Below, one piece after another: positions 2,952 to 22,138 of a DNA stretch of 38,288 bases; position 1 is the stretch's first letter; every line of letters starts with the position of its first letter. The DNA comes from a virus. The notes beneath the pieces were generated by a model. That model was not told the origin of the DNA. It saw nothing but the letters and a program-made list of their open reading frames with translations, and did no database searches. The stretch covers positions 1 through 38,288 of IMG/VR virus record IMGVR_UViG_3300042543_000416; one strand, written 5' to 3'. The position numbers and the translations under genes are program-made.

Positions 2952-3337
2952 GGGAGCGCCTTCCTCAGCATGGCCTCCCTATGGGCGCTCAGGGCCTGGT
3001 GGGCAAGGGTGCCGGGCTTCATTGCGGTCATTCGGCCATCGATGTCAGCGATGCACTCCCGCGCCATCTCGCTGCGGCCATCGCTGCGGCCCTCCTGGTA
3101 GGCCTGCTGCGATCCCGCGAGATTCCGGGCATCCCCTAGGATGCCGTCCTGCAGGGCGTCCAGGGCCTCGCACAGCTCAGCCGCTGCCCGGTCGTGGGCC
3201 TCGCGCAGTTCCATGACCCGCTGGGCGAGGTTGGGCTCGGGTTCGGGTTCTGGCTCGGGGAGGCTCCTCGGATCCCCAGCCCGCACCATGCCATAGGACT
3301 CCAGCATCATTTCCTCTGCGGGGTTGAGTTCGGTCAC
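2948..3337 (-). CDS. Hypothetical 129-aa protein, EP repeat
   Basis: Not recognised. An acidic N-terminus is followed by a PEPEPEPEP linker (about 27-35) and a long helical region (NLAQRVMELREAHDRAAAEL...), then QQAYQEGRSDGRSEMAREC and a C-terminal helix ending LRKALP. It starts in ATGA overlap with the ssb stop and ends in ATGA overlap with the next gene. Being directly behind ssb suggests an accessory of the recombination set, but no domain supports that. Confidence 0.7.
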   Translation of the reverse strand: MTELNPAEEMMLESYGMVRAGDPRSLPEPEPEPEPNLAQRVMELREAHDRAAAELCEALDALQDGILGDARNLAGSQQAYQEGRSDGRSEMARECIADIDGRMTAMKPGTLAHQALSAHREAMLRKALP

Positions 3338-4023
3338 AGCGCACCTCCGGATGGCGGGGCCCAGCCACCAGCGGATGGGGGTGTCCAGCTGGCGGAAGCG
3401 GCGGGCTTGGAGGTCTCGGTCCCGTGGGTACCGTGGGTCTCGGAGTCGCGGCGGGAGCCGATCAGGTCAAGCCGGTCAACCTTGACCACGGGCTTGCTAC
3501 GGACCTCACCTGTCGCCTTGTCTGCCCATGACTCCATGGCCAGCGAGCCGGTGATCCCCAATAGTGACCCCTTCCGCACATAGTCGGCCGCCACCTGGGC
3601 TTGCTTGCCCCAGATCTCCAGGTTGAACCAGTCGGGTTCGTCGTCGCGGCTGCGTCGATTGACAGCAAGCCTCAGTTTGGCAACGAGGCTACCTGAATCG
3701 AAGAACTTCACCTCGGGATCGGCTCCAGCCCGGCCAACCAGTGAGATGGTGCCCATGGGGAAGGCGTTGAAAGCGCTCAGATGAAGCTCAATGGGCCCAC
3801 CCTTGGGCAGGTGGATCTGACCCCTGATCTCAACATCCCGTTGCAGTGGAAACTCTGCTGCAACCCTTTCGGCCAGCTTGCCCCAGGCCTTCACCAACAA
3901 CGTGACCGGGACTTCTTCATCCTTGAATGGCGGGATAACGGTTTCAAATGTACACGTGCCGTCCTGATTGCGCGTCAGGGCGGTTGTATGGGATGAGCTA
4001 ATGGTCGCTGAAAAGTTGTTCAT
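3334..4023 (-). CDS. ssb: Single-stranded DNA-binding protein, two OB-like halves
   Basis: A 229-aa protein. Residues about 91-190 are a recognisable SSB OB fold (GTISLVGRAGADPEVKFF..., LRLAVNRRSRDDEPDWFNLEIWGKQAQ, ADYVRKGSLLGITGSL). Residues about 5-86 look like a second, divergent OB fold: VKAWGKLAERVAAEF (44-58) parallels EIWGKQAQVAADYV (136-149), and EIRGQIHL parallels LLGITGSL. The C-terminus is Ser/Pro/Gly-rich and ends PPSGGAL, so the acidic tip that bacterial SSBs use to recruit partners is absent. I chose ATG 4021-4023: it makes an ATGA overlap with the Gp157 stop and has GGAG at a good distance. An ATG 12 nt upstream is the alternative. It acts with the adjacent Rad52-like and Gp157 genes. 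Confidence 0.88.
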   Translation of the reverse strand: MNNFSATISSSHTTALTRNQDGTCTFETVIPPFKDEEVPVTLLVKAWGKLAERVAAEFPLQRDVEIRGQIHLPKGGPIELHLSAFNAFPMGTISLVGRAGADPEVKFFDSGSLVAKLRLAVNRRSRDDEPDWFNLEIWGKQAQVAADYVRKGSLLGITGSLAMESWADKATGEVRSKPVVKVDRLDLIGSRRDSETHGTHGTETSKPAASASWTPPSAGGWAPPSGGAL

Positions 4024-4556
4024 TGAATGCTCCATGTGCGGCGCTCGATTAGTTCGGCGCCAGGGATTGATTGACCAGCCTTGAGGGCTTCCTTGATGGC
4101 GGTCTTGTCGGGTTCAACTGTGGTCTTGACCCGTCGGAACTGCTCGGGCAGATCCTCGGGGCGGGCGTCCACCTGAACGACGGTGGATCGTCGGCTGGCG
4201 AGCCGGTGGCCTGGCAGTCGCCATTCCGTTGCATCGGGCTTAACCTTCCTGAGGCAGGCAATGATCCTGTCTTGCAGCATGTTGGCCCTGATCTCGTCCT
4301 TGCGGGCTAAGTCCTTCAGCCTTTGTGCATGCTCATTGCGAGCCTCAGCCTGAGCCCTGAATTGATCAATGACCCAGCAGTAGGCATCGGCCTTGGTGGC
4401 CAAGGCTTCGAGTGTTGAGTGCTCTGCGTTCAGGAGGGCTTCCAATGCCTCTACGGCGTCGGGAAGCGTCTCTAGGTCATCCAGCAGGGCGGCGGATTCC
4501 TCGATCTGCCGTTGCAGGGCGAGGGCCTGGCCGGTCAGCGCGAACAGGTTGGTCAT
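4020..4556 (-). CDS. Siphovirus Gp157 family protein
   Basis: A 178-aa protein matching the Gp157 family from end to end. An N-terminal helical/coiled-coil half (LTGQALALQRQIEE...ALEALLNAEHSTLEALATKADAYCWVIDQ) is followed by the hallmark C-terminal part (EDLPEQFRRVKTTVEPDKTA, IKEALKAGQSIPGAELIERRT). The family is encoded in phage recombination clusters; the first characterised member was linked to phage resistance in Streptococcus thermophilus, and its biochemical role is unsettled. The start at ATG 4554-4556 (MTNLFALTG) matches family N-termini, which means the gene overlaps the end of the Rad52-like gene by 80 nt in another frame. Confidence 0.88.
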   Translation of the reverse strand: MTNLFALTGQALALQRQIEESAALLDDLETLPDAVEALEALLNAEHSTLEALATKADAYCWVIDQFRAQAEARNEHAQRLKDLARKDEIRANMLQDRIIACLRKVKPDATEWRLPGHRLASRRSTVVQVDARPEDLPEQFRRVKTTVEPDKTAIKEALKAGQSIPGAELIERRTWSIQ

Positions 4557-5313
4557 TGTGCTGTGTTGGCGGGGTGGGTGGTTCGTCGCCATCGGAGACC
4601 CACACGGGGCCCCCCAGGGTGCCGGAGGAGTCGCCGTTGCACTCATCCCGCGTGGCGGTGGAGATGCCTTTGCTGATGATCCCATTGAGGACGCCTGCTG
4701 GGGCGCTTGCCAGGTCCTCGAATAGGCCATTGGACAGCTTCAAGGCAAGGGCGGCAATGCCCAAGTCCGTCAGGCCATCGCGGCGGCAGCGGGCCAGGGC
4801 TTCCGCCAGGAGGGGGTTCGGGGGGTTGGCCACCTCCTTCTGCTCCTTGTCATAGAGGGCCAGCCCGAAGGGGTTGCCGAAGGTCATCAGGGCCCGCTTC
4901 ATGGCGTCGGTCTCCGCCTCCTTGATGGCGGATTCGTGGGCCTGCCCCTGGTCCACGTCGATGCCGTGGCCAGCGCCGCAACCCTCACGGGTGATTCGGT
5001 CGCGGTCCGTGCGGACCGTGATCCGAACCTTGGCGGTGTAGGTGACGCCCCAGCCTTCCTTTTGCGGTGGATCACCCTCCCTAACGGGGGGACGCCCAAT
5101 TGGTCGCTCGGCACAGTAGACGCATGCCACTTCCAGGGTGTGCCGATCCCATGCGCCAAACCCGAAGATTCGGTTGGCTTCGGCGATTGCGTGCCAGCCC
5201 TCCACATAGGAAACCGTTTTGCCTCCCTGCTTCCGCGTCTTGACGTGGTCGCGGGTGAGCGGTTGGCTGAGCTGCGTGACCTGCTCAGGTGAAAATCCTC
5301 CGGGCGGATCCAT
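4477..5313 (-). CDS. Rad52-type single-strand annealing protein
   Basis: A 278-aa protein of the Rad52/Rad22 family, which anneals complementary single strands in phage recombination. Visible signatures are YVEGW and EANRIFGFGAW (36-55), the strand pair TYTAKVRITVRTD (91-103), REGCGAG (109-115), and the long helix ESAIKEAETDAMKRAL followed by FGNPFGLALYDK (127-156). After residue 165 it is less conserved and ends in a Pro/Arg-rich tail overlapping the Gp157 start. I place the start at ATG 5311-5313 because GAGGGG lies 5-6 nt upstream; an ATG at 5337 would abut the operator (5338-5365). It heads the Gp157-SSB operon and is probably controlled by that operator. Confidence 0.9.
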   Translation of the reverse strand: MDPPGGFSPEQVTQLSQPLTRDHVKTRKQGGKTVSYVEGWHAIAEANRIFGFGAWDRHTLEVACVYCAERPIGRPPVREGDPPQKEGWGVTYTAKVRITVRTDRDRITREGCGAGHGIDVDQGQAHESAIKEAETDAMKRALMTFGNPFGLALYDKEQKEVANPPNPLLAEALARCRRDGLTDLGIAALALKLSNGLFEDLASAPAGVLNGIISKGISTATRDECNGDSSGTLGGPVWVSDGDEPPTPPTQHNDQPVRADRPGPRPATADRGIRRPAG

Positions 5314-5337
5314 TGGTCCCCTCGATTGCCTGCACAT

Positions 5338-9444: not shown

Positions 9445-10053
9445 TCACACCTTCGCAGTGACGACACGCTCGGGCTGCCCCTGGTATTTCCCCTGTCTAT
9501 CCCGATAGGTGGTGTCACAGGGATCGCCCTCGAAAAACAATAGCTGACAAATGCCTTCTTCTGCGTACACCCGGCAATCAGCCCCGGAAGAATTGCTGAA
9601 CTCAAGCGTCAGGTGACCCTCCCAGCCGGCCTCGGCTGGCGTTGCGTTGACAATGATTCCCATGCGTGCATAGGTGCTCTTGCCAAGGCAGATCACAGTG
9701 ATATTTGGTGGCACACGCAACTTCTCCAGCGCCACGCCAAGGCCATAGGTATGACCCGGAAGAATGAAGAATTTCCCATCTTCATCCCGGTTGAGGTCTG
9801 CGGGCTCCAGGTTTCCAGGGTTGAACCGCTTAGGATTCATCACCATCCCTGGCACGTGGCGGAAGATCTGGAATTCCTCTGGTGACAGCCGAAGGTCGTA
9901 GCCGTAGGAGCCGGTGCCGTAGGAGAGTACGCGGCGAGTAGGGTCATTTCTGAAATTATCAGTGATCACCTGGCGCACCAAATGCGGCTCGAATGGGTTG
10001 ATCATCCCCAGGGCGGCTTGCTTCCTGATCCAGTGGTCGTTTTTGAGGCTCAT
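9445..10053 (-). CDS. dcd: dCTP deaminase
   Basis: A 202-aa enzyme that converts dCTP to dUTP, feeding dTTP synthesis during phage replication. Signatures are GSYGYDLRL (48-56), GKSTYARMGIIVNATPA (124-140) and GWEGHLTLEFSN (143-154); Glu 151 sits where the E. coli catalytic Glu 138 lies. The C-terminus (EGICQLLFFEGDP) is the conserved dUTPase-fold strand. No separate dUTPase is in the window, so a bifunctional enzyme is possible but not shown. It is first in the leftward arm, and its C-rich leader has no Shine-Dalgarno. Operator copy 2 lies 30 nt upstream. Confidence 0.95.
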   Translation of the reverse strand: MSLKNDHWIRKQAALGMINPFEPHLVRQVITDNFRNDPTRRVLSYGTGSYGYDLRLSPEEFQIFRHVPGMVMNPKRFNPGNLEPADLNRDEDGKFFILPGHTYGLGVALEKLRVPPNITVICLGKSTYARMGIIVNATPAEAGWEGHLTLEFSNSSGADCRVYAEEGICQLLFFEGDPCDTTYRDRQGKYQGQPERVVTAKV

Positions 10054-10133: not shown

Positions 10134-10316
10134 ATGGCCGCCAAGCGCCGAAAATCGCCTCAGATCAATATCTGCCTCCCGCCACGGCTGATTGCCTGGC
10201 TGGACGGCCACCGCGACCCCAACGATCCCAGGCCATCTGGCAGGGGCCACCGGGCGGCGGTGATCATCCGGCTGATCTCTGAGGCCATGGCCCGCGAGCT
10301 CGCAGACCGCGCGTGA
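10134..10316 (+). CDS. Ribbon-helix-helix-type DNA-binding protein
   Basis: A 60-aa basic protein. A basic start (MAAKRRKSP) leads to a strand-like stretch QINICLPPRLIAWLDGHR and a later helix HRAAVIIRLISEAMA, the arrangement of ribbon-helix-helix (Arc/CopG-type) regulators. These bind DNA as dimers on evenly spaced short half-sites. Its own promoter region carries operator copy 2, whose three equally spaced CTAG cores are the type of target such proteins use, so it is the best candidate for the operator's ligand. The last four bases overlap the next start as ATGA. Confidence 0.7.
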   Translation: MAAKRRKSPQINICLPPRLIAWLDGHRDPNDPRPSGRGHRAAVIIRLISEAMARELADRA

Positions 10317-12538
10317 AACACAGCGACACCCTTCAGCGGGCCTCCGGCAGGTGGCCTGAGATTCTGGTCGCTATCGGCGGGATCACGCCGGATCAGCTGT
10401 GCCGCCGAGAGGGCCCCTGCCCGGCCTGCCAGGCGATGTTCGGCGACGCGGGGAACACACGGTTCAAATGGGATGACGACTCAGGGGATGGGGCGTGGCA
10501 CTGCTCCCACTGCGGCGGCAAAGGCGGCAAGAAAGGTGGCGGCAACGGAGTGGACCTGCTCTCGCGTCTGCGGGGGCTGGGGTGGGGGCCCTCGGCGCTG
10601 GCGCCCACCCTGAAGCTGGTGGAGGAGGAGTTCTTCGGGCGCTCGGGTCGGCGGCGGGCAGGGTCGAGGCGATCTGCGGGGCCGCAACCTCCGGCAGGGA
10701 CGCCACCACGGCCGCGGCCACCGTCGGATTGGGTGGCGTTCTGTTGGCTGGAGGCGGCGGATCAACTCGCAGACGGGGAGGGCTTCAACCCGGCTCATGC
10801 CAGGGGGGGCGCCTACGTTCGGCGCTGGCTGAGATGGTGTGAGGGGGCGGATCCCGATCTGGTGGCCGCTGCGGTATTGGAGGGCGACACCCAGGCCGGC
10901 GGGCGAGAGATTCCCGACCTGGAGGAGCCACCACCAGCGGCGAAGCAGACGGCGGGCCCCGCTGGCCCGATGTCGCGGGAGGAGGTTCGACGGCGGCTGG
11001 CGGCGGCGGTGGAGGAGGGGGCGCCCAGGCTGGACCTGGAGGGCCTGCTCCTTGAGCTCGGCGAGCTGGCAGAGATCAGCCCATCGAACCTCAGGGGGCT
11101 CCTGCAGGCGGTCCAACGGGAACACGAGGCCGCACGATCGGTCGAGGCGGAGGAGCAGCGGCTGGTCGTCGCGGCGGATCGGCAGGATGTGGGCCGGGCG
11201 CTCGTGACGCTGGACGGCCTCCTCCCGCCATCCCTGGCAGACGCCATCCGCCTGACGACCCAATACCTGCCAGCGGATGACGCGACCCGTGCGGGGGTGT
11301 TCCTGGCCGCAGCCTCTGGGGTGCTCAGGCTTGGGACGGAATTGGTAGCATCAAGGATTTGCAACTTCAAGGCGCCGCTTAATCTTTACTGCGCACTAGT
11401 TGGCAAGGTTTCCGTCAAGAAAGGCCCGGTATGGAAGGCACTTGCCAAGCATCCATTGGAGCCAATCGTCACGGAACTCAACAGAAGACATGAAACCGCT
11501 ATGGCAGCATGGCGGCAGGAGTGCCAGGGCAAGAAGCCACACGAGCGGGACGACCCACCACGCGCGGTTCGGCTGAGCATCGACGAATACACGGGGGAGA
11601 GCTTGGCGTCTCAGTTCCAAGTACAGGAGCAGGCGGGCGCAGGGATCATCCTCCTCCGTGATGAGATCGCCGGCCTGTTTGGTACGCTGAATAAATACAC
11701 AGGACGCGGCGACGATCAACAACGACTATTGGAAATGTACGAAGGTGGTGGATTTAGTTCCCTCAGAGTTGGTGTAGATGGTGGCGGTAGATTTTTCTCA
11801 AAATGTCACTTTTCTATACTTGGAACAATTCAGCCGGAGGTTCTGCAGTCCCTGGTGGCAGGTGGCGACCCTGGGGGTCTGTGGGCCCGGTTCCTATTCC
11901 TGCCCATGCCCCCTCGGGTGATCGAGCTTCCCGCCACGGAATCAGAAGAGGATGTGCGGGCGGTGCAACTGGCGGCCGAGACACTGGCGGCCACCATGCG
12001 GGCGCTACACCGGCTCCCGCCTATGTCCCTGGCGATGGACCCAGAAGCCAGGAGAATGTTTACGAAATATGAAGTGCGCTGTCAGCGGGACGCGCTGGCC
12101 TCCCCCATCGCCGCGCAGAGCGGGGCCTGGGGGAAGGCGCCCGGGAAAGCACTCCGGATCGCGGGAATCCTCCACCTGTTGCACCGGGTGTCTCCTGATG
12201 GGGATGTCGGCGACCTGGTGTCGAGTCGCACCCTGCAGGCGGCCTGCAACCTGGTCGATCACCTCACAGGATGGGCGCTCGGGATTCACGAGGCTGCAGC
12301 CGGAGGCGAGGCCAGCGATCTGATGGGCCAGATCCACCGCATCGCGCAGGCGGCGGGGCAGGCCATCGCCTGGCGCGATGTGTCCCGGCGGCTGTCGTTA
12401 CGCCAGCGGGCAGAGATCGATTCTGCGGCGGCCCACGTGGCTGTGGCGGCCCTGGCGCGGCTGGGGGTGGGCGAGGTTGGCGAGGGCAGGCGGCCCGGGA
12501 GCTGGACCTACAGGGCGACCGCTGACCTGCCGGGGTGA
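10313..12538 (+). CDS. Zinc-finger primase / DUF3987 helicase
   Basis: A 741-aa replication protein. The N-terminus is a P4-type primase zinc domain (GRWPEILVAIGGI 12-24, CPAC 36-39, CSHC 64-67, GNGVDLL 77-83). A Pro/Arg-rich and helical middle is followed, from about 300, by a DUF3987 ATPase-like domain: VGKVSVKKGPVWKAL (363-377) at the P-loop position, LLRDEIAGLFGTLNKY (447-462) at Walker B, and GTIQPEVLQSLV...GLWARFLF further on. The P-loop lacks the usual GxGK(S/T) form, so ATP use is uncertain. The last 80 residues look like a winged helix. It probably initiates or drives phage DNA synthesis. It starts in ATGA overlap with the RHH gene. Confidence 0.88.
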   Translation: MKHSDTLQRASGRWPEILVAIGGITPDQLCRREGPCPACQAMFGDAGNTRFKWDDDSGDGAWHCSHCGGKGGKKGGGNGVDLLSRLRGLGWGPSALAPTLKLVEEEFFGRSGRRRAGSRRSAGPQPPAGTPPRPRPPSDWVAFCWLEAADQLADGEGFNPAHARGGAYVRRWLRWCEGADPDLVAAAVLEGDTQAGGREIPDLEEPPPAAKQTAGPAGPMSREEVRRRLAAAVEEGAPRLDLEGLLLELGELAEISPSNLRGLLQAVQREHEAARSVEAEEQRLVVAADRQDVGRALVTLDGLLPPSLADAIRLTTQYLPADDATRAGVFLAAASGVLRLGTELVASRICNFKAPLNLYCALVGKVSVKKGPVWKALAKHPLEPIVTELNRRHETAMAAWRQECQGKKPHERDDPPRAVRLSIDEYTGESLASQFQVQEQAGAGIILLRDEIAGLFGTLNKYTGRGDDQQRLLEMYEGGGFSSLRVGVDGGGRFFSKCHFSILGTIQPEVLQSLVAGGDPGGLWARFLFLPMPPRVIELPATESEEDVRAVQLAAETLAATMRALHRLPPMSLAMDPEARRMFTKYEVRCQRDALASPIAAQSGAWGKAPGKALRIAGILHLLHRVSPDGDVGDLVSSRTLQAACNLVDHLTGWALGIHEAAAGGEASDLMGQIHRIAQAAGQAIAWRDVSRRLSLRQRAEIDSAAAHVAVAALARLGVGEVGEGRRPGSWTYRATADLPG

Positions 12539-12540
12539 TG

Positions 12541-12600
12541 TGACGATTTGTTAGCAGGATGCGGGGGTGTGGCCATATGGGTCACGTAGGCGTTACTGTG
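12541..12600 (+). promoter_or_regulatory. Promoter module P1
   Basis: The upstream element TGACGATTTGTTAG begins at 12541, 2 nt after the primase stop. GTCACGTAGGCGT lies at 12581-12593 and the -10-like TACTGT at 12594-12599. The start of the upstream element and the -10 are 53 nt apart, identical to P2, P3 and P4. No canonical -35 lies 17 bp upstream of the -10, so an activator is likely. Confidence 0.65.
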
Positions 12601-12651
12601 TGGTCATCGGGAGGAGAGATCCACCGGTTCCCACCCCACGGAGTTCGCACC

Positions 12652-12933
12652 ATGGCTAAATTCAAAACCACAATCAACTTCTGTGGAGATCGTCGGTTTG
12701 ATGATCCCGTTGAGGCTGTATTGACAGCACAGGATGAGCAGGAGGCCCGAATCAAGGCGTTGCGCCGCTGCTACAGAAATTCAAAGATCTGCACATTCAT
12801 CCCTTACAACTCGCTACCTGGCCAGTCTCCATCCGGCCAATCAGGCTGGGGCTATGAACGCGCTTCGCGCAAGTCTGGAGCTGATCTGGCCTCGGCGACC
12901 TCCATGCTTCGAGTGACAATAGAGCGCCTATAA
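12652..12933 (+). CDS. Hypothetical 93-aa protein
   Basis: Not recognised. It starts MAKFKTTINFCGD with strand-like residues, followed by a helix (AQDEQEARIKALRRCY) and a second half with YNSLPGQSPSGQSGWGYERASRKSG, finishing with a short strand MLRVTIERL. The strand-helix-strand order resembles the other small proteins behind P2 and P4. The start ATG follows CCACCCCACGGA by 10 nt; the same 12-mer precedes the next gene at the same distance. First gene after P1. Confidence 0.6.
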   Translation: MAKFKTTINFCGDRRFDDPVEAVLTAQDEQEARIKALRRCYRNSKICTFIPYNSLPGQSPSGQSGWGYERASRKSGADLASATSMLRVTIERL

Positions 12934-12984
12934 GGCTCCTAGCGATCCCTGCCTTCCACCCCCCCACCCCACGGAATTCACGTC

Positions 12985-13140
12985 ATGTTTTTTGTTCTTG
13001 CCCTCCCTGGTCGCCGTCTTCGCTATGGCGGTTTTATTTGGCGCCATGAGTGGCGCGGTTTTGCCTTTGGATTTCACCGCTTTGGGAATTGCCAAGGGGC
13101 GCTTGTTATCCCCCTCTGGCCACGTCTAGGCGCTGTCTAG
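12985..13140 (+). CDS. 51-aa Arg/Gly/Phe-rich peptide
   Basis: Translation from ATG 12985 gives 51 residues: MFFVLALPGRRLRYGGFIWRHEW, then RGFAFGFHRFGNC and a short hydrophobic end, stop at 13138-13140. It is aromatic and basic, with no known motif. The leader CCACCCCACGGA at 12964-12975 sits exactly as in front of the preceding gene, which is the main support for its being translated. It could be a host-takeover peptide, but nothing in it shows a function. Confidence 0.5.
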   Translation: MFFVLALPGRRLRYGGFIWRHEWRGFAFGFHRFGNCQGALVIPLWPRLGAV

Positions 13141-13181
13141 TTCCCGCCCCCGCCTGTAGCTAATCCCATCGCAATCACACA

Positions 13182-13391
13182 ATGACCCACCAAGTAACAC
13201 AACTCACCCAAGAAGAAGCTGTCAACGCATACGAAACTGACGCTTGGCGCAATTGGACTCCAGAGGTTCGCGCAAGTTTTCAGTTGTATCAAGAGCGCCT
13301 TTGCATGCCAATGAGTGTCTTTAGGGAGTCACTATCTCAAGCACTTGGAAGGCCAGTATCCTTGTTTGAAATGGCGTACTCTACATATTGA
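13182..13391 (+). CDS. Hypothetical 69-aa protein
   Basis: Not recognised. A polar, acidic N-terminus (MTHQVTQLTQEEAVNAYETDAW) is followed by helices (PEVRASFQLYQERLCMP, FRESLSQALGRPVS) and an end LFEMAYSTY. It is lower in GC than its neighbours. It has a C/A-rich leader without a Shine-Dalgarno. Part of the small-gene zone behind P1. Confidence 0.6.
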   Translation: MTHQVTQLTQEEAVNAYETDAWRNWTPEVRASFQLYQERLCMPMSVFRESLSQALGRPVSLFEMAYSTY

Positions 13392-13444
13392 GCACTGGGT
13401 TACCAGGGCCTGAGCATCACATCCACCCCATCTCACGCCACCCC

Positions 13445-13864
13445 ATGTCCACCAACACCACACATTCGCCACCCGTCGACCTATGGCACGAGCTGAGCCT
13501 GGCAAACTCAGCTCTGCTCCGGGCGTCCCGCCACATCGCCGTGGCGATCAGTGATCTTCATCCTGTGTTCCAGGCCACCCTTGTTGATCGTCTGCAGGAA
13601 TCCAGGGAGGCGCTCGCCAGCACTCTCCTCGCCCCGACGATGCTCGGTACTGATTCCTATCTGGTGGCCAGACTCGTTGCGGCGCTCCTGGGGGCGACTG
13701 AAGCCCTCCTGAAGGCAACCAAAATCATCGCTGACGAGGAAGGGTTCAACGGGCACGCGCGGGACGCACTCAGGGCCGTAAGGCGGGCGAACCATGTCGT
13801 CAGGGGCCACCTCCGGGCCAGGGGCCTCCTGCAGGAGAACCCGGGGGGCGATGGCGATGTGTGA
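13445..13864 (+). CDS. Hypothetical 139-aa helical protein
   Basis: Not recognised. Long amphipathic helices (LWHELSLANSALLRASRHIAVAI; LVARLVAALLGATEALLKATKII; ARDALRAVRRANHVVRGHLRARG) suggest a helical bundle. I chose ATG 13445 after the C/A-rich leader; a TTG at 13388 would add 19 unlikely residues. The end overlaps the next gene by 8 or 14 nt depending on the start used there. Confidence 0.6.
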   Translation: MSTNTTHSPPVDLWHELSLANSALLRASRHIAVAISDLHPVFQATLVDRLQESREALASTLLAPTMLGTDSYLVARLVAALLGATEALLKATKIIADEEGFNGHARDALRAVRRANHVVRGHLRARGLLQENPGGDGDV

Positions 13865-14177
13865 CTGCGGCGACTACGACCGCCCCGCAGTGTTCCAGGA
13901 GGTCACGCGGCGGGCAGCCAGGCGGCACAACTGCGGCGAGTGCCGAGTGCTGATCATGCCAGGCCAGTACTACTGGGAGAGCCGCTGCCTCTGGGACGAC
14001 GAATGGAGTACCCACAGGACCTGTGGAGCATGCCACCTGATCGGTTCCCAGCTGGCAGACTGCTATCCGTTCCGAGGCCTCGCCGATTGCTTGGCGGAGG
14101 ACCTGGAGGATCCCGATGCGGCCATCGCCCACGCTGGGATGCGTCGTCGCCAGGCTGCTGCGGGGGGCGATGGCTGA
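13851..14177 (+). CDS. Cys-rich (zinc-binding?) 108-aa protein
   Basis: Starts MAMCDCGDYDRPAVF at ATG 13851; ATG 13857 is the alternative and gives an 8-nt overlap. Cys pairs CDC (4-6), CGEC, later C, and CGAC suggest two or more metal sites, with a middle region MPGQYYWESRCLWDDEWSTH. This layout is common in small phage proteins that resemble restriction-type or HNH-type zinc-knuckle folds without their catalytic residues. Function unknown. It overlaps the next mini zinc-finger gene by 8 nt. Confidence 0.6.
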   Translation: MAMCDCGDYDRPAVFQEVTRRAARRHNCGECRVLIMPGQYYWESRCLWDDEWSTHRTCGACHLIGSQLADCYPFRGLADCLAEDLEDPDAAIAHAGMRRRQAAAGGDG

Positions 14178-14400
14178 CACCCCAGCCCAGCGGAAGCGCC
14201 GCCAGCGGCTGCGGGCGATCGGGCTGCTGCCTCCCCTCAGCGTGATCACTTGCCAGTCGTGCGGCTCTCCCGCCACGGGGCTCTACGACCCCCTCTGCTC
14301 CCACTGCTGGGAGCGCCAGACTCCTGAAGGGCTGGCAGCCGTGGCGGCACGGGTCGCGGCCTGGCGGGCGAGGCAGCGGCGGCGCCAGCGGGAATCGTGA
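14170..14400 (+). CDS. Mini zinc-finger protein, paralogue 1
   Basis: A 76-aa basic protein: an Arg/Lys-rich N-terminal helix (RKRRQRLRAIGLL), a CQSC...CSHCW zinc knuckle, ERQTPEG, and a second Arg-rich helix (WRARQRRRQRES). Two more copies of this design are at 15700-15927 and 17864-18061. The basic-finger-basic design suggests nucleic-acid binding. It starts inside the previous stop as ATGGCTGA, and its stop codon is the first TGA of promoter module P2. Confidence 0.65.
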   Translation: MADTPAQRKRRQRLRAIGLLPPLSVITCQSCGSPATGLYDPLCSHCWERQTPEGLAAVAARVAAWRARQRRRQRES

Positions 14401-14460
14401 CAGGTTGTGAAGCTGGCCCCCTGGTGGGGCCGACCGTGTCACGTAGGCGTTACTATGTGT
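14398..14460 (+). promoter_or_regulatory. Promoter module P2
   Basis: Upstream element TGACAGGTTGTGAA starts at 14398, GTCACGTAGGCGT at 14438-14450, and -10-like TACTAT at 14451-14456. The 53-nt offset is the same as in P1, P3 and P4. The upstream 14-mer is identical to that of P4 while the core matches P1, so the two parts look like exchangeable modules. Confidence 0.7.
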
Positions 14461-14509
14461 TCACCGGGGCAGGGATGCCTCGACTCTCACCCCCACCAGA
14501 GATCACACC

Positions 14510-14707
14510 ATGTCAACCCTCTACGTCGTCCAAGTCGCCGGTCCCCAGAAGGCCTGGATCGATTGGGATCAGAACCGCAACCTGCCCGCCTTCACCTTCA
14601 CCCAACCCGAGGGCGTCAGCCGGGAGGAGGCCAAGGCGCTCAAGGCCCGCGCCAACATCTGCTGCGGTGGCACCCTGAAGATCGTCAAGGCCCCCACTGC
14701 GGCCTGA
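14510..14707 (+). CDS. Hypothetical 65-aa protein, paralogue A
   Basis: Not recognised. A strand (STLYVVQVAG), a turn with DWDQNRNLPAFTF, a helix (SREEAKALKARANI) and a final strand (TLKIVKAPTAA). It resembles the 78-aa protein at 14776-15012, which has the same strand, DxD...PAF, DEAKxLLAR, LRIVSA order. First gene behind P2, with the C/A-rich leader. After its stop an 18-bp element (14712-14729) is shared with the end of the paralogue. Confidence 0.6.
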   Translation: MSTLYVVQVAGPQKAWIDWDQNRNLPAFTFTQPEGVSREEAKALKARANICCGGTLKIVKAPTAA

Positions 14708-14711
14708 GCGC

Positions 14712-14745
14712 CCACGGCCCGCCGGGAGCACTTCTCCGTGCTCCA
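14712..14745 (+). repeat. 18-bp intergenic repeat and hairpin, copy 1
   Basis: CCACGGCC-C/T-GCCGGGAGC occurs at 14712-14729 and 15016-15033, each time a few bases after the stop of one of the two related small genes. Here it leads into GGAGCAC/GTGCTCC (7-bp stem, 6-nt loop); at the second copy GCCGGGA/TCCCGGC forms the stem. A mRNA 3'-end stabiliser or weak terminator is plausible. Confidence 0.5.
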
Positions 14746-14775
14746 ACCCACCTTACCCACTTATTCACAACAACA

Positions 14776-15012
14776 ATGTTTTACGTTAAGGCAACTCTTC
14801 AAGCTCCCCCAGGCGTGCATGACTTAGCAGTCAGATCTAGTTTTCCACGCGATGTTTATGTCTGCTATAGGGATTGGGACACTCCTGCTTTCCGAAGCAT
14901 TGACCAGCCGCCAAAACCACTAACACTGGACGAAGCGAAAACACTTCTGGCCAGGTGTGAAGAAGTTCATGGATCTTTATATAACCACAATTTAAGAATT
15001 GTTTCCGCTTAA
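14776..15012 (+). CDS. Hypothetical 78-aa protein, paralogue B
   Basis: Not recognised. Starts MFYVKATLQAPPG; strands are followed by YRDWDTPAFRSIDQ, the helix LDEAKTLLARCEEVHG and a last strand NLRIVSA. Order and key residues match the 65-aa protein at 14510-14707, but the DNA is distinctly lower in GC, so the pair is not a fresh duplication. The leader is ACAACAACA-type with no Shine-Dalgarno. Confidence 0.6.
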   Translation: MFYVKATLQAPPGVHDLAVRSSFPRDVYVCYRDWDTPAFRSIDQPPKPLTLDEAKTLLARCEEVHGSLYNHNLRIVSA

Positions 15013-15015
15013 CTT

Positions 15016-15042
15016 CCACGGCCTGCCGGGAGCCCATCCCGG
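15016..15042 (+). repeat. 18-bp intergenic repeat and hairpin, copy 2
   Basis: Second copy of the 18-mer (15016-15033), with GCCGGGA/TCCCGGC forming a 7-bp stem around a 5-nt loop. It follows the stop of the 78-aa paralogue B, as copy 1 follows paralogue A. Confidence 0.5.
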
Positions 15043-15069
15043 CGGTTCCATCACCCTGTCTTACCACCC

Positions 15070-15243
15070 ATGGATTTTTTTAAGTTTTGCAGGCTACTTA
15101 GCTGGCTGCTGAATTCACTTGCTGTTTTCTTTATATCTGTGGCTATCCTGTACTGGGTTGTTGCCGGAAACATGAATGACCCGCCGGTAAAGTTACTATA
15201 TCTAAGTGTTGTATTGATTCTGCTTAACACACCAAGACTTTGA
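15070..15243 (+). CDS. 57-aa membrane protein
   Basis: Translation from ATG 15070 gives 57 residues with two hydrophobic segments: about 9-34 (LLSWLLNSLAVFFISVAILY, WVVA) and about 43-54 (LLYLSVVLILL), joined by a GNMNDPPVK turn. It reads as a small two-helix membrane protein with short polar ends. It is AT-richer than its neighbours. The C/A-rich leader (TTACCACCC) precedes the ATG. Function unknown. Confidence 0.55.
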   Translation: MDFFKFCRLLSWLLNSLAVFFISVAILYWVVAGNMNDPPVKLLYLSVVLILLNTPRL

Positions 15244-15251
15244 CAACAACC

Positions 15252-15527
15252 ATGTCAGTTCTGCCCACGATTCATCTGAAAGGCAATAGCCCCGCAGCCT
15301 TGGAGGAGAGGTATCGATTCGTGCGGCAGGCAATGAACGCTGCCTCTGCTGCACTGGAGGCCGCGACGTTCAGCCCCAGGGATTTCTACCCCCAGGGGCC
15401 TGACGCCTGGCAGCGGGCCCTTAATGACCGCGCCGAGGCCTTCCGCATGCTGCGGGCATTAGCGGACTACGCCGAGCAGTGGGAGACGCGCGCTGCCAAC
15501 CATCGCCACCCCCGCAACACACCATGA
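15252..15527 (+). CDS. Hypothetical 91-aa helical protein
   Basis: Not recognised. After MSVLPTIHLKGNSPAALEER come helices (YRFVRQAMNAASAALEAATF; AWQRALNDRAEAFRMLRALADYAEQW) and a basic tail. The ATG 15252 follows ACAACAACC; its end overlaps the next start as ATGA. Confidence 0.6.
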   Translation: MSVLPTIHLKGNSPAALEERYRFVRQAMNAASAALEAATFSPRDFYPQGPDAWQRALNDRAEAFRMLRALADYAEQWETRAANHRHPRNTP

Positions 15528-15703
15528 CCACCACACGCCTCACAATGCCCTTCCAGGTCGTCCTACGGGCCCCTGACGGGCAGACCGCCACCATCCCCCT
15601 CCAGGCCCGCGACAGGGCCCATGCCGTGGCCTCAGCGCTCGAGCTGGCAGGGCTGGGGCAGGGGGTGCTGGTGGTGCGCTGCCATCGCGTGGGGGAGTGG
15701 TGA
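15524..15703 (+). CDS. Hypothetical 59-aa protein
   Basis: Not recognised. Short beta-rich protein: FQVVLRAPDGQTATIPLQARDR, then a helix AHAVASALELAGLGQG and a strand VLVVRCHRVGEW. The strand-helix-strand order is like other small proteins in this zone. It starts in ATGA overlap with the previous stop, and its stop overlaps the next GTG start as GTGA. Confidence 0.6.
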   Translation: MTTTRLTMPFQVVLRAPDGQTATIPLQARDRAHAVASALELAGLGQGVLVVRCHRVGEW

Positions 15704-15927
15704 GCGACCCCACAGGGGCTGAGCGGTCCCGACGATGGCGTGCCAGGCAGGCTGGAAGGCTGCCACCAGCCGAGCGGCTGATCTGCGAGGCCTGTGGAGG
15801 GGGTCGCAGCGGACGTCACGGCAAGGTCTGCCGCTGTTGCTGGGAGCGGGTCACGCCTGAGGGCAGGGCAGCCAAGGCGTCTCGTGTGGCGCGGAGCAGG
15901 AGGAAAGCCAAGGGTGACGGATTGTGA
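15700..15927 (+). CDS. Mini zinc-finger protein, paralogue 2
   Basis: A 75-aa protein starting at GTG 15700 (GTGA overlap). It has RSRRWRARQAGRL, a CEAC...CRCCW knuckle, ERVTPEGRAAKASRVARSRRKAKG. The order basic helix, CxxC, CxxCW, TPEG, basic helix is the same as in the copies at 14170 and 17864. Its stop codon is the TGA of TTGTGA in the P3 upstream element. Confidence 0.65.
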   Translation: MSDPTGAERSRRWRARQAGRLPPAERLICEACGGGRSGRHGKVCRCCWERVTPEGRAAKASRVARSRRKAKGDGL

Positions 15928-15976
15928 ACAGGCCTAGCGATGCCACGGCAACCGCAACGGTACGCGCTACAGTATA
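15915..15976 (+). promoter_or_regulatory. Promoter module P3
   Basis: TGACGGATTGTGAA starts at 15915; core CAACGGTACGCGC ends just before -10-like TACAGT (15968-15973), 53 nt on. The bases continue as ATAAAG. The core matches P4, not P1/P2. It lies ahead of the GIY-YIG gene. Confidence 0.65.
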
Positions 15977-16021
15977 AAGACAACCGGGGAGGCCAGGCAC
16001 TACTTAACGAGACTCAAGGAC

Positions 16022-16402
16022 ATGAAAAACAATCGACATGCAAGATCAATCCGCTGGTTTCGTCTTGATATTTTGCAGCCACCGCAACAACCAGGAATCT
16101 ATGCAATAAAAAGCAAAACACATTGGCTTTATGTTGGGCGAGCCCTTAATATTGCCAGACGGATTAAAAATCCTTGTCATCCGATTCAAATCACAAAAGA
16201 TTTAGAAAATATTCAACTCACTTACTTGTGGCAGCCAGTCGCTCGGAATGCTTCGCTTGCCAAGCAAGAAAATGCAATGATTCGAGAATACAATCCACAA
16301 TGGAATGGAGGAACAGAATTTTATGGTCCGACGAAGTGGCCATCCTGCGCATTGCTTCTGCCCGTAAGCATGGAGGAGTTGTGTCAGGTGCTTGGCAATT
16401 AG
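16022..16402 (+). CDS. GIY-YIG-type nuclease
   Basis: A 126-aa protein with the GIY-YIG fold markers: PGIYAI (24-29), LYVGRALNIARRI (36-48, Arg 47), the metal-ligand-type Glu 83 in AKQENAMIREYNPQWN, and Asn 91. These enzymes cut DNA with one metal ion. It is a stand-alone catalytic domain with no DNA-binding tail, shorter than typical homing endonucleases. GC is clearly below that of its neighbours and it is bracketed by P3 and P4, which suggests a gene gained as a cassette. Roles as a host-DNA nuclease or a mobile element are both open. Confidence 0.75.
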   Translation: MKNNRHARSIRWFRLDILQPPQQPGIYAIKSKTHWLYVGRALNIARRIKNPCHPIQITKDLENIQLTYLWQPVARNASLAKQENAMIREYNPQWNGGTEFYGPTKWPSCALLLPVSMEELCQVLGN

Positions 16403-16451
16403 TTGGCAAATCATTTCATTGCCCCCTCTCATCGAGGAGCTTTTTCATGTG

Positions 16452-16514
16452 TGACAGGTTGTGAACTGATCCGCCGATGACGACCGAACCGCAACGGTGC
16501 GCGCTACATTGTGT
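16452..16514 (+). promoter_or_regulatory. Promoter module P4
   Basis: TGACAGGTTGTGAA starts at 16452; core CAACGGTGCGCGC precedes -10-like TACATT (16505-16510), again 53 nt on. The upstream 14-mer equals that of P2, the core that of P3. Confidence 0.65.
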
Positions 16515-16553
16515 GCATCGGGGGCGGAGGCGCTCCCACCACCCATCAGAACC

Positions 16554-16790
16554 ATGACCGCTGCCCCCCTCTGGAAAACTACCTTCATCTGGACCGCTAC
16601 CTTCACCTGCCCCGACGGTTACACCTATTACGCTCCCGACGGCTTCCCTTTTGCCACCTTCCGCAAGAACTGGCGCGATGAGTGGGAGCTGAACTTTTTC
16701 CACAGGACCGAGAGCTGCGCCATGGAGGCCATCTGCAAACTGCAAAACGAGCAGATTCCGGCTGCGCTTCGTTCCCTTAATGCCGCTTGA
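16554..16790 (+). CDS. Hypothetical 78-aa protein
   Basis: Not recognised. A beta-rich first half (TTFIWTATFTCPDGYTYYAPDG) is followed by NWRDEWELNFFHRTE, a helix (CAMEAICKLQNEQ) and LRSLNAA. It resembles other small P-module genes in being strand-rich with one helix. The ATG 16554 has the C/A-rich leader (CCACCACCCATCAG). It is the last gene before the repeat array. Confidence 0.6.
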   Translation: MTAAPLWKTTFIWTATFTCPDGYTYYAPDGFPFATFRKNWRDEWELNFFHRTESCAMEAICKLQNEQIPAALRSLNAA

Positions 16791-17354
16791 CCTGAGCCAC
16801 CACCGGGGCTTTACCGTATCCAGGCCCGGTCGGCCCATCATCCGCAAGGGGGGCGCCGTGGCTGGCTTTGTTGGGGCCGGCCTGGAACGGTACCGAAGAC
16901 CGGGCAACCAATGCGCCCTCGGGAGACCGGGGGCTTTGTCGGCTTTGTCGGCTGTTGTCGGCTGGCAGCCGACATTGAGATCCATTGCGCTGCAAGGGAT
17001 TTGGGGAAATGTCGGCTTTGTCGGCTATGTCGGCTGTAAAAATCAAAAAACAGGGTTTTATGTATCACCATGTTACAGAACAGGTAAAAAACGGGGAAGT
17101 GCCAAAAACAGCCGACAAACCGACAAAGTAATTAAGTAAGTAATTAAAAGTATTAGTATTAAAGGGTTTTAAGGGTTTTAGGGGCAGCCGACAAACAGCC
17201 GACAAACAGCCGACAAAACCGACATAGCCGACATTCCCGCCGCAGGGGGTAGCCTGGCCTCGGTCGGCCCGGGGTGCCATGGGGTGGGAGTCGGGGCCGG
17301 CCACCCATTCGCGGTGGGGTGTGGCATCATGGGAGCCCCCCCAGGAGCGATCGC
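16791..17354. other. Non-coding gap with repeat array
   Basis: No gene is supported in these 564 bp. The centre (16937-17233) is the TGTCGGCT repeat array, described separately. The left flank (16791-16936) and right flank (17234-17354) are GC-rich and carry no clear signal. A consensus cyanobacterial HIP1 octamer GCGATCGC lies at 17346-17353, just before the next gene. Confidence 0.6.
16937..17233. repeat. Convergent TGTCGGCT repeat array around AT-rich core
   Basis: Forward TGTCGGCT starts at 16937, 16946, 16956, 17010, 17019 and 17028. Inverse AGCCGACA starts at 16967, 17110, 17186, 17197, 17208 and 17226, with degenerate ACCGACA at about 17119 and 17218. Steps are 9-10 bp on the left and 11 bp on the right. 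The middle (17036-17185) is AT-rich, with runs such as GTAATTAAGTAAGTAATTAA. The layout resembles an iteron origin with an unwinding region; a multi-site operator or a large cruciform are alternatives. Confidence 0.75.
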
Positions 17355-18376: not shown

Positions 18377-19234
18377 ATGGCCAACCCGCCGGGAATAGAT
18401 ATAGTTTTTGATCTAGGAGATATTCCGGCGACTGCGCGCAACTTTGGAGTGTTGCCTAGGCAGATGCCCATGATCATGGGTAAGGCGATGACATTGGGGG
18501 TTAAGGCGGCCAAGGATAAGATTCGTGCTGATATATTTCCAATGATTAAGGGTGGTCCAACGCGGTGGACAGAGCGTGGGCTGATTGCGAAATTCGCCAA
18601 GCCCACGGATCTTCGCGTGCAAGTCGGATTTAATTTTGGCGAAGGAAGATTTGAGGATGATGAATTCACGCGGAAAGGTATTGGCATACCTTCTGGTAGG
18701 TACATGGAGATCAACGCCAGGGGTGGACCAAGGAAACCAAAGTCTACAGAATTGCAACTCAGGCGGTCGGGAAAGATAGCGGGAAACAAGTTTCTTACGC
18801 CTAATAAAAACTTGCCAGAGATAGATTCACACGGTAACTTGCCGGGCTATCTATACACTCAGATCGGCTCGCGTCTTCGTGGGTTGTCTACACCAGGATC
18901 AACTCAGAACGCACCGTATGGACCGGGTTCACGGGGGCGTACGGCGAAGAAGCGGGCGCAAGTTGATTATTTTATCATGCGATATTCTGGCGGCCGTCCT
19001 ATTGGTCCGAGGCAGCTTGGTGGCGAGCCAGCGTTCATTGCAAAACGTGAAGGATTAGGTAAAGGCAAGAAGCGGGGATTCTCTGTAGCTTTGTGGATTG
19101 TTGATCAGCCTATGTATAAGCGAAGGTTTCCTGTCAAGCCTATAGCCTTGAGAGAGTTTGCACGGGTGTTTGATATAGAGTTTGTTAAAGGAGTTAATGA
19201 CTCGATTGCATGGCGGATTAGACATGGGAAGTAG
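18377..19234 (+). CDS. Minor tail protein Z-like
   Basis: A 285-aa protein. The N-terminal region (ARNFGVLPRQMPMIMGKAMTLGVKAA, then PTRWTERGLIAKFAKPTDLR, VQVGF) follows the pattern of lambda gpZ-type proteins: a helix LP..m..A......A, then PT.fT..g......A.....l.a.V. The rest is basic and Gly-rich. In such phages it takes part in tail completion. It is AT-richer than its neighbours, uses AGGA before the ATG, and is placed before the terminase rather than with the tail genes. Confidence 0.55.
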   Translation: MANPPGIDIVFDLGDIPATARNFGVLPRQMPMIMGKAMTLGVKAAKDKIRADIFPMIKGGPTRWTERGLIAKFAKPTDLRVQVGFNFGEGRFEDDEFTRKGIGIPSGRYMEINARGGPRKPKSTELQLRRSGKIAGNKFLTPNKNLPEIDSHGNLPGYLYTQIGSRLRGLSTPGSTQNAPYGPGSRGRTAKKRAQVDYFIMRYSGGRPIGPRQLGGEPAFIAKREGLGKGKKRGFSVALWIVDQPMYKRRFPVKPIALREFARVFDIEFVKGVNDSIAWRIRHGK

Positions 19235-19533: not shown

Positions 19534-20148
19534 GTGGCGGTGCCCAGCCCCCCAGGCCTGATCGGCCCAAACGAGGCAGTCAAAATCCTGAAGATCTTCA
19601 AGCCTCAGCTCTACCGGGCGATGGAAGCTGGCGCAATACCAACCAAGGAAGTGAATGGCAAGCGGATGATCATCCGCGAAGGACTGGAGGAGGCATGGGA
19701 GAACCGTCCCCGGCGACTTGTGCGAGTGCCCACCAGTGAAGCCGGGAAGGCCCGCGCCAAGGAACGGCGGCCACCACCACCACAAACAGACCAGGATTGG
19801 CCGGAGCCCCCCGGCGAACGCCCGGATGGACTGCCGCCTAGGCCTGGTGCCGATGAAACCCCAAACCTGGAGGTGCAGAAGGCGTGGAGGGAATATGAAC
19901 TGCGCCGCAAGGCACATCGAGAAAATCTGGTCAGTGAAGGAATTCTTATTTTCAAGTCAGACATGCAAGCAGCATTCAATGGTGTTTTGGCGGAATTACT
20001 CAACCGTGCGCACGAAGTAGGGCGCCAAATTGCCCTGCAAATTCCACAACTTAAAACAGAAGAAGTCGAAATCATTGACAAAGTTGTGCTTCAGCTTTTT
20101 GAAGAAGTATCAAAGCTAGATTTTGAGAATCTAAAACATGATCAATAG
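19534..20148 (+). CDS. Terminase small subunit
   Basis: A 204-aa protein, GTG start. Residues 8-55 are a MerR/excisionase-like helix-turn-helix (GLIGPNEAVKILKIF, LYRAMEAGAIP, MIIREGLEEAW) of the type that binds DNA in lambda Nu1-like small terminases. A Pro-rich linker (about 78-105) is followed by the family's helical core (EVQKAWREYELRRKAHRENL...) and an oligomerisation end. It recognises the packaging site and recruits the large subunit, encoded next with an 11-nt overlap. The same HTH ends the helicase at 6224-8257 (27/48 identical). Confidence 0.82.
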   Translation: MAVPSPPGLIGPNEAVKILKIFKPQLYRAMEAGAIPTKEVNGKRMIIREGLEEAWENRPRRLVRVPTSEAGKARAKERRPPPPQTDQDWPEPPGERPDGLPPRPGADETPNLEVQKAWREYELRRKAHRENLVSEGILIFKSDMQAAFNGVLAELLNRAHEVGRQIALQIPQLKTEEVEIIDKVVLQLFEEVSKLDFENLKHDQ

Positions 20149-22138
20149 AGATATTCCAGCCCTTGCAAGGGATTTTGCCGGCCTGTTAAAGCCAAGGCCG
20201 CCGATTAGTGCGTTGCAATACGCAGAGGAACATTTTTATGTTACTGGCGGAGAAATAAGCATGCGATGGATAACTAGGCCTTATCAGCGTGATTGGTTTC
20301 TGGCGGTTTCTGATCCCAATGTGCAGTGCATTATCTGCAAAAAGCCCGCAAGGATCGGATGGAGTGAGTTTGTCAAATTCGTCATTCAATGGTTTGTGGA
20401 TTGGAAACGCAAAAAGGTCCTTGTTGTTCACCCTACAGATTCTGATTCCGAGATATTCGTCAGCGAACATATAGATGACGGCCTGTTTCATCCATTGAAA
20501 GCCCCGCCAAGGCTTAGGGGTTTGTTTGATTACTCTGGAAGCAAAAACGCAAGACCAAATAACAAAAAATTTAAGTCGGCCGCAAACGGCGCTGCGGTTC
20601 AGTTTGTCAACGCCGGCTCCCCCAGTTCAGCCCGTGGTATCAACCGACCCGTAATCATCATGGAAGAAGTGTCTGGTTGGTACGAAATCAAGGAAGGAAA
20701 CGCGGTTGAAAACTATAAAAAACGAGCGGATACGTCTGTAAGTCCATTCTACACAATCGGCGCAACCCCTGTTCACGTTGGCGACCACATTGAAGTAGCC
20801 TTTCTAATGGGCGATCAACAATACAGGTACTATCCCTGTCCGCATTGCGGAAATTATGACGAACTGATGACCCGTGATGCGTGGAAACGGTTCATCACTG
20901 AGGGCGAACACGCCGGCAAGAAGCGCTGCGGCTATTGCGAGGAACTGATTGAATATAAGCACTTGCGTTGGATGGATGAAAACGCAGGATGGGCATGTCC
21001 GCTGGGCTTGGATCGCGAGAATCAGGTCAAGGATGATGAAGGCCAGCCGATCTGGCGGTCACAGCAGCACGGCCCCGGCCAGAGCTACCACACTGGACAG
21101 AAATGGACCAATATAGCCAGGGAACATCGAATTGCAAAAGAAGAACTGCGAAAAGGCAGGCCCGAACGAATGATGTCATTCCACATGACCATGATGGGCA
21201 TCGCGTGGGAGCCCTCCTACGCATCTCAGATCACTGCCGAGGGCCTGACCAAGCGCCGCCTTGACGAGCAGGCCGGCAACAACTACCCCCCCGAGGGCGC
21301 CACCTGGGAGGCCCCGCGCGGGGTCTTGGCGGTCACGATCGGTGTTGACACCCAGGGCGGTGGTGGCGAAACCGTCGGGGAGGGGTTTGTGGTTCACGTC
21401 TGGGGCTGGGGAGCGGGGGAGGAGAGCTGGCACCTGGCGCAGTTCGAGATCAGCGGCGACCCGCGCCAGGAGGGCACGCTGAATCAGCTGGACGCGATCC
21501 GAGAGAGCATCTGGCATCGCGAAGACGGGGCCCAACTGAACGCCGCACTTGGCGGGATTGACGAGGGCGGCCATGCAACCGAGGCCGTGCGCCGCTGGTG
21601 CGCCTCACGTGGCGGCCTATGGGTGCCCACCCGGGGCTTGCCGGGAGACAAGCCAATCCTCGGCAAAGGCACGCCGGTCACGTTTGATGCCAAAAATAAA
21701 GCAAAAGCAAAAGTTGGCAGAGACACCCTGATGTACGGAATCGGTTATGAGGCCTCCGTCAACCGCTGGGCTGCTCAGCTCGCGGTGAAGGCCCCAGGCC
21801 CTGGATATGTGCATCTAGGGCGTGCCACCAGCGATCAGACCCTGAACGAGCTGTTCCCATGGAAACGGGCCCTGTCGTCCGCTCGATCGAACCGCGCCAC
21901 CTGGAAGCTACCCCCAGGCAGCCGCGACGAGGCGGGAGACTGCAGGCGGATAGCCTACGCGGCCCTCGGCCTGATCGGCAGGCGCTACGCCCGCCCTGAC
22001 GTGATGTGGGCGGAGCTGGAGCGGAAGGCGCTGGAGACGATTGGCAGTCGCCAGCCAAAGGCTCCCGCCCCGCGCGATCCATCCGCGCCTGAAAATTGGA
22101 TTGATCGTGACAGGGTTCGCAACTGGCTTAGGCGGTAG
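20138..22138 (+). CDS. Terminase large subunit (GpA family)
   Basis: A 666-aa packaging motor/nuclease. The ATPase half has ITRPYQRDWF, the deviant P-loop KKPARIGWSEF (68-78), HPTDSDSEIF and Walker-B-like VIIMEEVSG (172-180). A CPHC...CGYC zinc knuckle follows. The nuclease half shows TIGVDTQGGG and GGIDEGGHATEAV, the acidic motifs of the RNase-H-like domain. The AT-rich first part and GC-rich second part differ in base use, a possible mosaic join near 21200. It belongs to the lambda-type group that cuts at cos sites, so cos packaging is likely. Confidence 0.93.
   Translation: MINRDIPALARDFAGLLKPRPPISALQYAEEHFYVTGGEISMRWITRPYQRDWFLAVSDPNVQCIICKKPARIGWSEFVKFVIQWFVDWKRKKVLVVHPTDSDSEIFVSEHIDDGLFHPLKAPPRLRGLFDYSGSKNARPNNKKFKSAANGAAVQFVNAGSPSSARGINRPVIIMEEVSGWYEIKEGNAVENYKKRADTSVSPFYTIGATPVHVGDHIEVAFLMGDQQYRYYPCPHCGNYDELMTRDAWKRFITEGEHAGKKRCGYCEELIEYKHLRWMDENAGWACPLGLDRENQVKDDEGQPIWRSQQHGPGQSYHTGQKWTNIAREHRIAKEELRKGRPERMMSFHMTMMGIAWEPSYASQITAEGLTKRRLDEQAGNNYPPEGATWEAPRGVLAVTIGVDTQGGGGETVGEGFVVHVWGWGAGEESWHLAQFEISGDPRQEGTLNQLDAIRESIWHREDGAQLNAALGGIDEGGHATEAVRRWCASRGGLWVPTRGLPGDKPILGKGTPVTFDAKNKAKAKVGRDTLMYGIGYEASVNRWAAQLAVKAPGPGYVHLGRATSDQTLNELFPWKRALSSARSNRATWKLPPGSRDEAGDCRRIAYAALGLIGRRYARPDVMWAELERKALETIGSRQPKAPAPRDPSAPENWIDRDRVRNWLRR

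Follow-up and report, generated by a model that had tools for sequence, protein, structure and literature searches.

A two-orientation iteron array, very probably a replication origin, in a tailed phage with a DUF3987 primase-helicase

Introduction

P4 is a satellite that needs two cis regions, ori1 and crr, and in SCCmec the iterons bound by Cch2, located downstream of the Cch2 gene, are 5 nt long. In SaPI it is the C-terminal domain of Rep that recognizes the short-iteron origin directly downstream of the rep gene (PMC7581432). In PICIs the origin is 3' of rep and has two sets of iterons around an AT-rich region, an organization described as occurring in "no other known bacterial replicon" (PMC6092414). 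In the Vibrio PLE the exchange of an initiator domain together with its iteron module has been proven, and it helps the element to escape the origin-cutting nuclease Odn (PMC8263062). DUF927 and DUF3987 have been predicted to be helicases that are associated with mobile-element primases, for which a C-terminal winged helix has been suggested to serve in origin recognition (PMC5862659). In the open-access literature we found no description of such arrays in tailed phages with DUF3987 proteins.

The locus described here is part of a stretch of 38,288 nucleotides (the window; IMG/VR record IMGVR_UViG_3300042543_000416), which belongs to a tailed phage and encodes a terminase, portal, head protease and tail genes. 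P4 alpha and crr resemble it in combining a primase-helicase that carries a PF08273 Zn ribbon with short words in both orientations, and crr lies directly 3' of the alpha gene, the same position as the arrays of the relatives of the window. The P4 helicase, however, is of the D5/DUF5906 type with a Pox_D5 C-terminus, whereas that of the window is DUF3987; the P4 domain set of Zn ribbon, TOPRIM, D5-type helicase and Pox_D5 C-terminus is not that of the window protein, and the P4 word TGTTCACC shares only TGT with the word TGTCGGCT of the window.

SaPI and PICI are similar to the window family in that the origin lies by the rep gene, two iteron sets flank an AT-rich region, and the iterons differ between elements (PMC6092414, PMC7581432). 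Their C-terminal domain reads the iterons, and its proposed counterpart in the window is a predicted winged helix. They are satellites, whereas the window belongs to a full tailed phage with its own structural and packaging genes, its helicase is DUF3987, and a cassette of ~4.3 kb separates the gene from the putative origin. SCCmec Cch and Cch2 share with the window a self-loading MCM-like/AAA+ helicase, but they belong to a chromosomal cassette, have few iterons and come from another helicase sequence family. The RepA-ori of the Vibrio PLE is like our proposal in that the DNA-binding domain of the initiator and the iterons swap as cognate modules (PMC8263062); it differs in that the RepA_N initiator binds via its N-terminus and is not a helicase, and in its ~30-bp iterons.

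The repeat array and its AT-rich core

The features of the array are as follows.

16937, 16946, 16956, 17010, 17019 and 17028: forward copies of TGTCGGCT
16967, 17110, 17186, 17197, 17208 and 17226: inverse copies of TGTCGGCT
17118-17125 and 17217-17224, minus strand: degenerate copies in inverse orientation, both TGTCGGTT
16937..16974: outer left iteron cluster, forward at 16937, 16946 and 16956, inverse at 16967
16980..17000: imperfect palindrome ATCCaTTGCgctGCAAgGGAT, read from the sequence, with the outer left sites before it and the inner left sites after it
17010..17035, plus strand: inner left iteron cluster, three forward copies in 9-bp steps
17036..17185: AT-rich core (66% AT), proposed melting region
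17110..17125, minus strand: inner right iteron pair, 17110 exact and 17118 degenerate
17186..17233, minus strand: outer right iteron cluster of five inverse copies, all exact except the degenerate copy at 17217

A sequence-only reading of the window had noticed 12 exact and two degenerate repeats here, and the array is confirmed as real. The 12 exact copies of TGTCGGCT fall within 297 bp (16937-17233), where 1.3 are expected in the whole window; with a 13th copy at 27579 the total of 13 was reached in 0 of 100 shuffles. The arms are arranged as that reading described, forward on the left and mostly inverse on the right, except for the inverse copy at 16967 in the left arm, which is conserved in the layout of relatives. 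The AT-rich stretch of 150 bp between the arms is equally borne out: AT content is 66% there and 30-35% to either side, and nowhere in the 38-kb window is a 60-bp segment richer in AT than within 17121-17182 (0.77 AT). Steps of 9-11 bp, thought to place the sites on one helical face, were found as steps of 8-11 bp and within clusters only. Counted from the first site, the offsets are 0+ 9+ 19+ 32-, 73+ 82+ 91+, 175- 183-, 251- 262- 273- 282- 291-; with cluster gaps of 43, 68 and 82 bp and a best common period of ~9 bp (R 0.70), a single helical face is not established.

The array is overlapped by ORFs in a mechanical sense, and that at 16780-17139 has no PHROG match. The array matched no RNA family in Rfam, and a blastn search against phage records returned nothing. 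An exact-word search of IMG/VR for TGTCGGCT triplets led to three unrelated places, so the word itself is not shared. Only one array was found in the window, where P4 needs two cis regions. Cumulative GC skew, which had been suggested as a check, has no turning point and is uninformative.

Arrays at the stop codon of related genes

The detector was applied to P4 as a positive control and, given no prior information, picked out both crr and the ori1 region; the type 1 repeats read TGTTCACC, a word similar to that of the window, and crr occupies nt 51-315 past the alpha stop codon. For the comparison, viral contigs, phage records and genomes supplied relatives of two helicase clades, gathered by means of the helicase itself, and 80 of 363 helicase-domain loci were kept. 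An array was considered significant when a two-orientation 7-mer array scored above 3 in 550-bp windows. By this measure 80% of 87 non-redundant loci, which share ancestry and are not independent samples, carry a significant array at the primase-helicase stop codon, as compared with 1.05% of 1,517 control windows; three loci with a displaced array (the window, ZRG1 and L005) were scored at that array and not at the stop codon. The array is immediately 3' of the primase-helicase gene in nearly all relatives, and it is weak or not detectable in L004 and six other non-redundant loci.

Altogether 34 different 7-mers came out on top, a number that includes shifted readings of a single word. Words among relatives include TGTCGGC, TGTTGGC, TGTGGGC, GTAGGGC, TGTTACG (as in L008), TGTTCCG (L007) and TGTCCCG (L005 and L006), and those of the window's own DUF3987 clade include TGTCGG, TGTTGG, TGTGGG and GTAGG. 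Relatives of the window's primase Zn ribbon do not share TGTCGGCT but have arrays of other words close after the primase gene. Most of the genomes matched by the window's own clade are Cyanobium/Synechococcus assemblies, and the host is therefore probably a picocyanobacterium. Separately, L046 has a dense TGTTACACC array (10652-10876) directly after a true DUF927 primase-helicase gene.

These comparisons of sequences link the array to the DUF3987 primase-helicase gene family. The interpretation as an iteron origin, already offered by the sequence-only reading, is strongly supported by the usual position of the relatives' arrays right after the primase-helicase gene and by P4 crr, for which this test gave the same outcome. 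The array might instead be a set of operators, bound by a repressor or other regulator that controls the late genes to the right and has no role in replication; repeated sites in intergenic AT-rich regions can be operators, and an HTH_17 protein is encoded at 19534-20148. However, the array follows the primase-helicase gene in many phages, its position is matched by crr, a cis-acting replication region, and its word changes together with the C-terminal domain of the primase-helicase (see below), all of which makes a purely regulatory array improbable. A packaging (cos/pac) or recombination site with repeated contacts for terminase or recombinase would fit the terminase gene at 20138-22138, ~3 kb to the right, but the array tracks the replication helicase, and relatives with unrelated terminases (those of L007 and L008 differ in type) have the same kind of array; we give this explanation hardly any weight.

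Conserved layout of the arrays

For the sequence-only reading, repeats not conserved in related phages would have counted against an origin. What is conserved is their layout (outer +++-, inner ++, core, inner --, outer ---), while the letters of the word change. The same +++- outer cluster is present in L134, L135, L142, L145, L152, L155 and Bdellovibrio phage phi1422 (L017), whose word TGTTACC occurs at offsets 0+ 9+ 19+ 34-, 97+ 105+, 195- 203-, 281- 291- 300-. In clade members such as L142 and L134, an extra forward site in the right arm mirrors the inverse site of the left arm.

The arrangement of complementary arms raises the possibility of a long RNA hairpin acting as a terminator, antiterminator or processing site, which the sequence-only reading had named as its alternative. 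The window fold is very stable (z -8), and in most relatives too the array folds more stably than shuffled sequence, but any inverted word array folds in this way. Hairpin strength is not kept among relatives (z of -1.6 in L139, -2.7 in L135 and -3.1 in L128), whereas the sites and their order are; moreover, the spacing of the left arm is not mirrored in the right, and inverse words within an arm would compete with each other. An RNA hairpin is thus very improbable as the function of the array.

Other motifs recur independently of the word. An element like the palindrome at 16980..17000, of the form GATCCCTTGC..GCAAGGGAT, is present in some relatives with other words; ATCCCTTGC occurs in 12 of 77 arrays and in 9 of 1,893 control windows, and a loose hairpin pattern (TTGC..GCAA) is weakly enriched (9/77 arrays, 73/1,893 control windows). 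Arrays of the second clade (L124, L125, L116 and others) share the central motifs CCCCCTATA, TAGAGAGAG and TATGTATCT, which are independent of the word and rare elsewhere and represent a candidate common melting element. Second arrays, with the word ATGGCTA/ATAGCCA mostly in one orientation, were seen in L145 and L112 (~3.8 kb and ~3.4 kb, respectively, upstream of the primase stop); these may be operators or, as with ori1 in P4, a second cis region.

The primase-helicase and its C-terminal domain

10313..12538, plus strand: DUF3987 primase-helicase, 741 aa, proposed initiator, with N-terminal Zn ribbon, disordered linker and AAA+/MCM-like helicase
12302..12535, plus strand: C-terminal winged-helix domain (residues 664-741, AlphaFold2), proposed iteron-binding part

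The protein matches DUF3987 in Pfam (E 8e-35) and Zn_Ribbon_Prim just below the cutoff (E 1e-4), with no match to TOPRIM or D5. In its AlphaFold2 model the Zn ribbon at the N-terminus is joined by a disordered linker to an AAA+ helicase, which is followed by a C-terminal winged helix with pLDDT mostly above 90. The best solved Foldseek matches of the helicase model are MCM subunits and SCCmec Cch (5dgk), with E-values from 6e-4 to 4e-3. The closest solved folds to the winged helix are generic, with no match below E 0.02; it has no sequence link to P4 alpha, the C-terminus of which is not alignable with it.

A natural exchange points to the part of the protein that probably reads the word. L124 and L132, a near-sister pair, are 94.9% identical in DNA over the helicase and 92.3% downstream, as compared with 62.8% over the C-terminal domain and 54.2% over the array. 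The divergence comprises the last ~95 residues, with a break after TRTIGELV in the protein, and the words differ (TGTTACG and TCT[TG]ACG); judged from these sequences, the C-terminal domain and the array were exchanged together. Between L004 and L005 the whole helicase half and the intergenic region have been exchanged between near-identical flanks, although the L004 array itself is weak. In the larger clade, same-word and different-word pairs are separated better by identity of the C-terminus (AUC 0.81) than by that of the helicase core (0.70) or the N-terminus (0.65); the "different word" calls for L070/L071 and L132/L128 were judged to be classification artefacts of near-palindromic or mixed words and were left unused. 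In the DUF3987 clade the C-terminus is no better a tracker of the word than the helicase core (AUC 0.83 vs 0.88), and it is therefore from the other clade that the domain is assigned. Proteins of the TGTTGG class can be told apart from the others by residues 691 and 692; shared ancestry can explain this separation, and a specificity code is not claimed from it.

The C-terminal winged helix is the likely binder of the iterons. The sequence-only reading had nominated the primase N-terminus, the RHH protein and the mini zinc-finger proteins; the primase-helicase is retained, by way of its other end, and the Zn ribbon, RHH protein and mini zinc fingers are less likely binders. The Zn ribbon was rejected as the word binder, as it stays 65-70% identical while the words change.

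The N-terminal primase is exchangeable as well. L134 has an AEP/PrimPol primase domain (6zp9, E 7e-29) and L028 a Zn ribbon, and both have TGTTGG arrays. L134, L143, L147, L156, L157 and L159 have the same DUF3987 helicase, and a Zn ribbon was not found by Pfam at their N-termini. The N-termini of the L134 group suggest that helicase and origin form a constant unit to which different primase modules are fitted.

Probable displacement of the array from its gene

12559..16790, plus strand: small-gene cassette between the primase-helicase gene and the array, probably inserted, absent at that place in L024 and L030
14116-14400, 15697-15927 and 17864-18061: mini zinc-finger-like ORFs
16022-16402: small GIY-YIG nuclease gene in the cassette (Pfam E 6e-5), ~540 bp left of the putative origin
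18377..19234, plus strand: gene following the array, as do its homologues in L024 and L030

A distance of 4.4 kb separates the array of the window from the primase-helicase gene. Homologues of the gene at 18377-19234 begin 767 nt after the primase stop in L024 (42% identity) and 596 nt after it in L030 (41% identity), and both loci have the array without the cassette. This synteny accounts for the shift: an inserted small-gene cassette of ~4.3 kb probably pushed the origin away from its gene. Cassette ORFs recur elsewhere in L137, L145 and L149, and Pseudomonas phage ZRG1 has a similar displacement, with its array ~4.6 kb downstream.

L137, L145 and L149 have relatives of the mini zinc-finger ORFs at 14116-14400 and 15697-15927, upstream of the primase in the first two loci and downstream of it in the third, and these ORFs may constitute a mobile small-gene set. 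The origin-cutting nuclease Odn of ICP1 carries a T5orf172 (GIY-YIG-type) nuclease domain; by analogy, a link of the GIY-YIG gene in the cassette to origin targeting or homing is conceivable. Elsewhere in the window, a dCTP-deaminase-like gene (9445-10053) adjoins the primase, and 3334-5337 on the opposite strand holds an SSB, Mu-Gam-like and recombinase block.

Proposed mechanism and implications

We consider it highly probable that 16937-17233 is the replication origin of this phage, with iterons served by its own DUF3987 primase-helicase, and that the origin and the C-terminal domain of this protein form a cognate, exchangeable pair. The C-terminal winged helices of several primase-helicase copies would recognize TGTCGGCT, and on the mirror-image arms two helicase rings would come to sit face to face over the AT-rich core. 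The core would then melt, the helicases would unwind in both directions, and host polymerase would copy the strands. Binding, the two rings, melting and bidirectional replication are all predicted, as is the continued service of the displaced array by this protein. The origin and the C-terminal domain would be exchanged between phages as a unit, which would explain why the word differs between phages while the layout is constant.

Judged by its sequence, this is the origin anatomy known from the P4 and SaPI/PICI satellites, here in tailed phages. More tentatively, and with somewhat less than even confidence, we propose a general origin system of tailed phages, in which the layout is fixed and winged helix and iteron word move together as one cassette, so that phages sharing hosts would use many mutually incompatible "dialects". 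Competition between co-infecting phages could drive this diversity, or nucleases that target origins could do so, as with Odn of ICP1.

The origins of most environmental phages are unmapped, and a two-orientation word array just after the primase-helicase stop codon is offered as a rule for locating them. The correspondence between a winged helix of ~90 residues and a word of 7-8 bp would be a testable code, for which the natural swaps are ready-made controls. An origin organization described as unique to satellites would now be found in tailed phages, which bears on the exchange of replication modules between satellites and phages.
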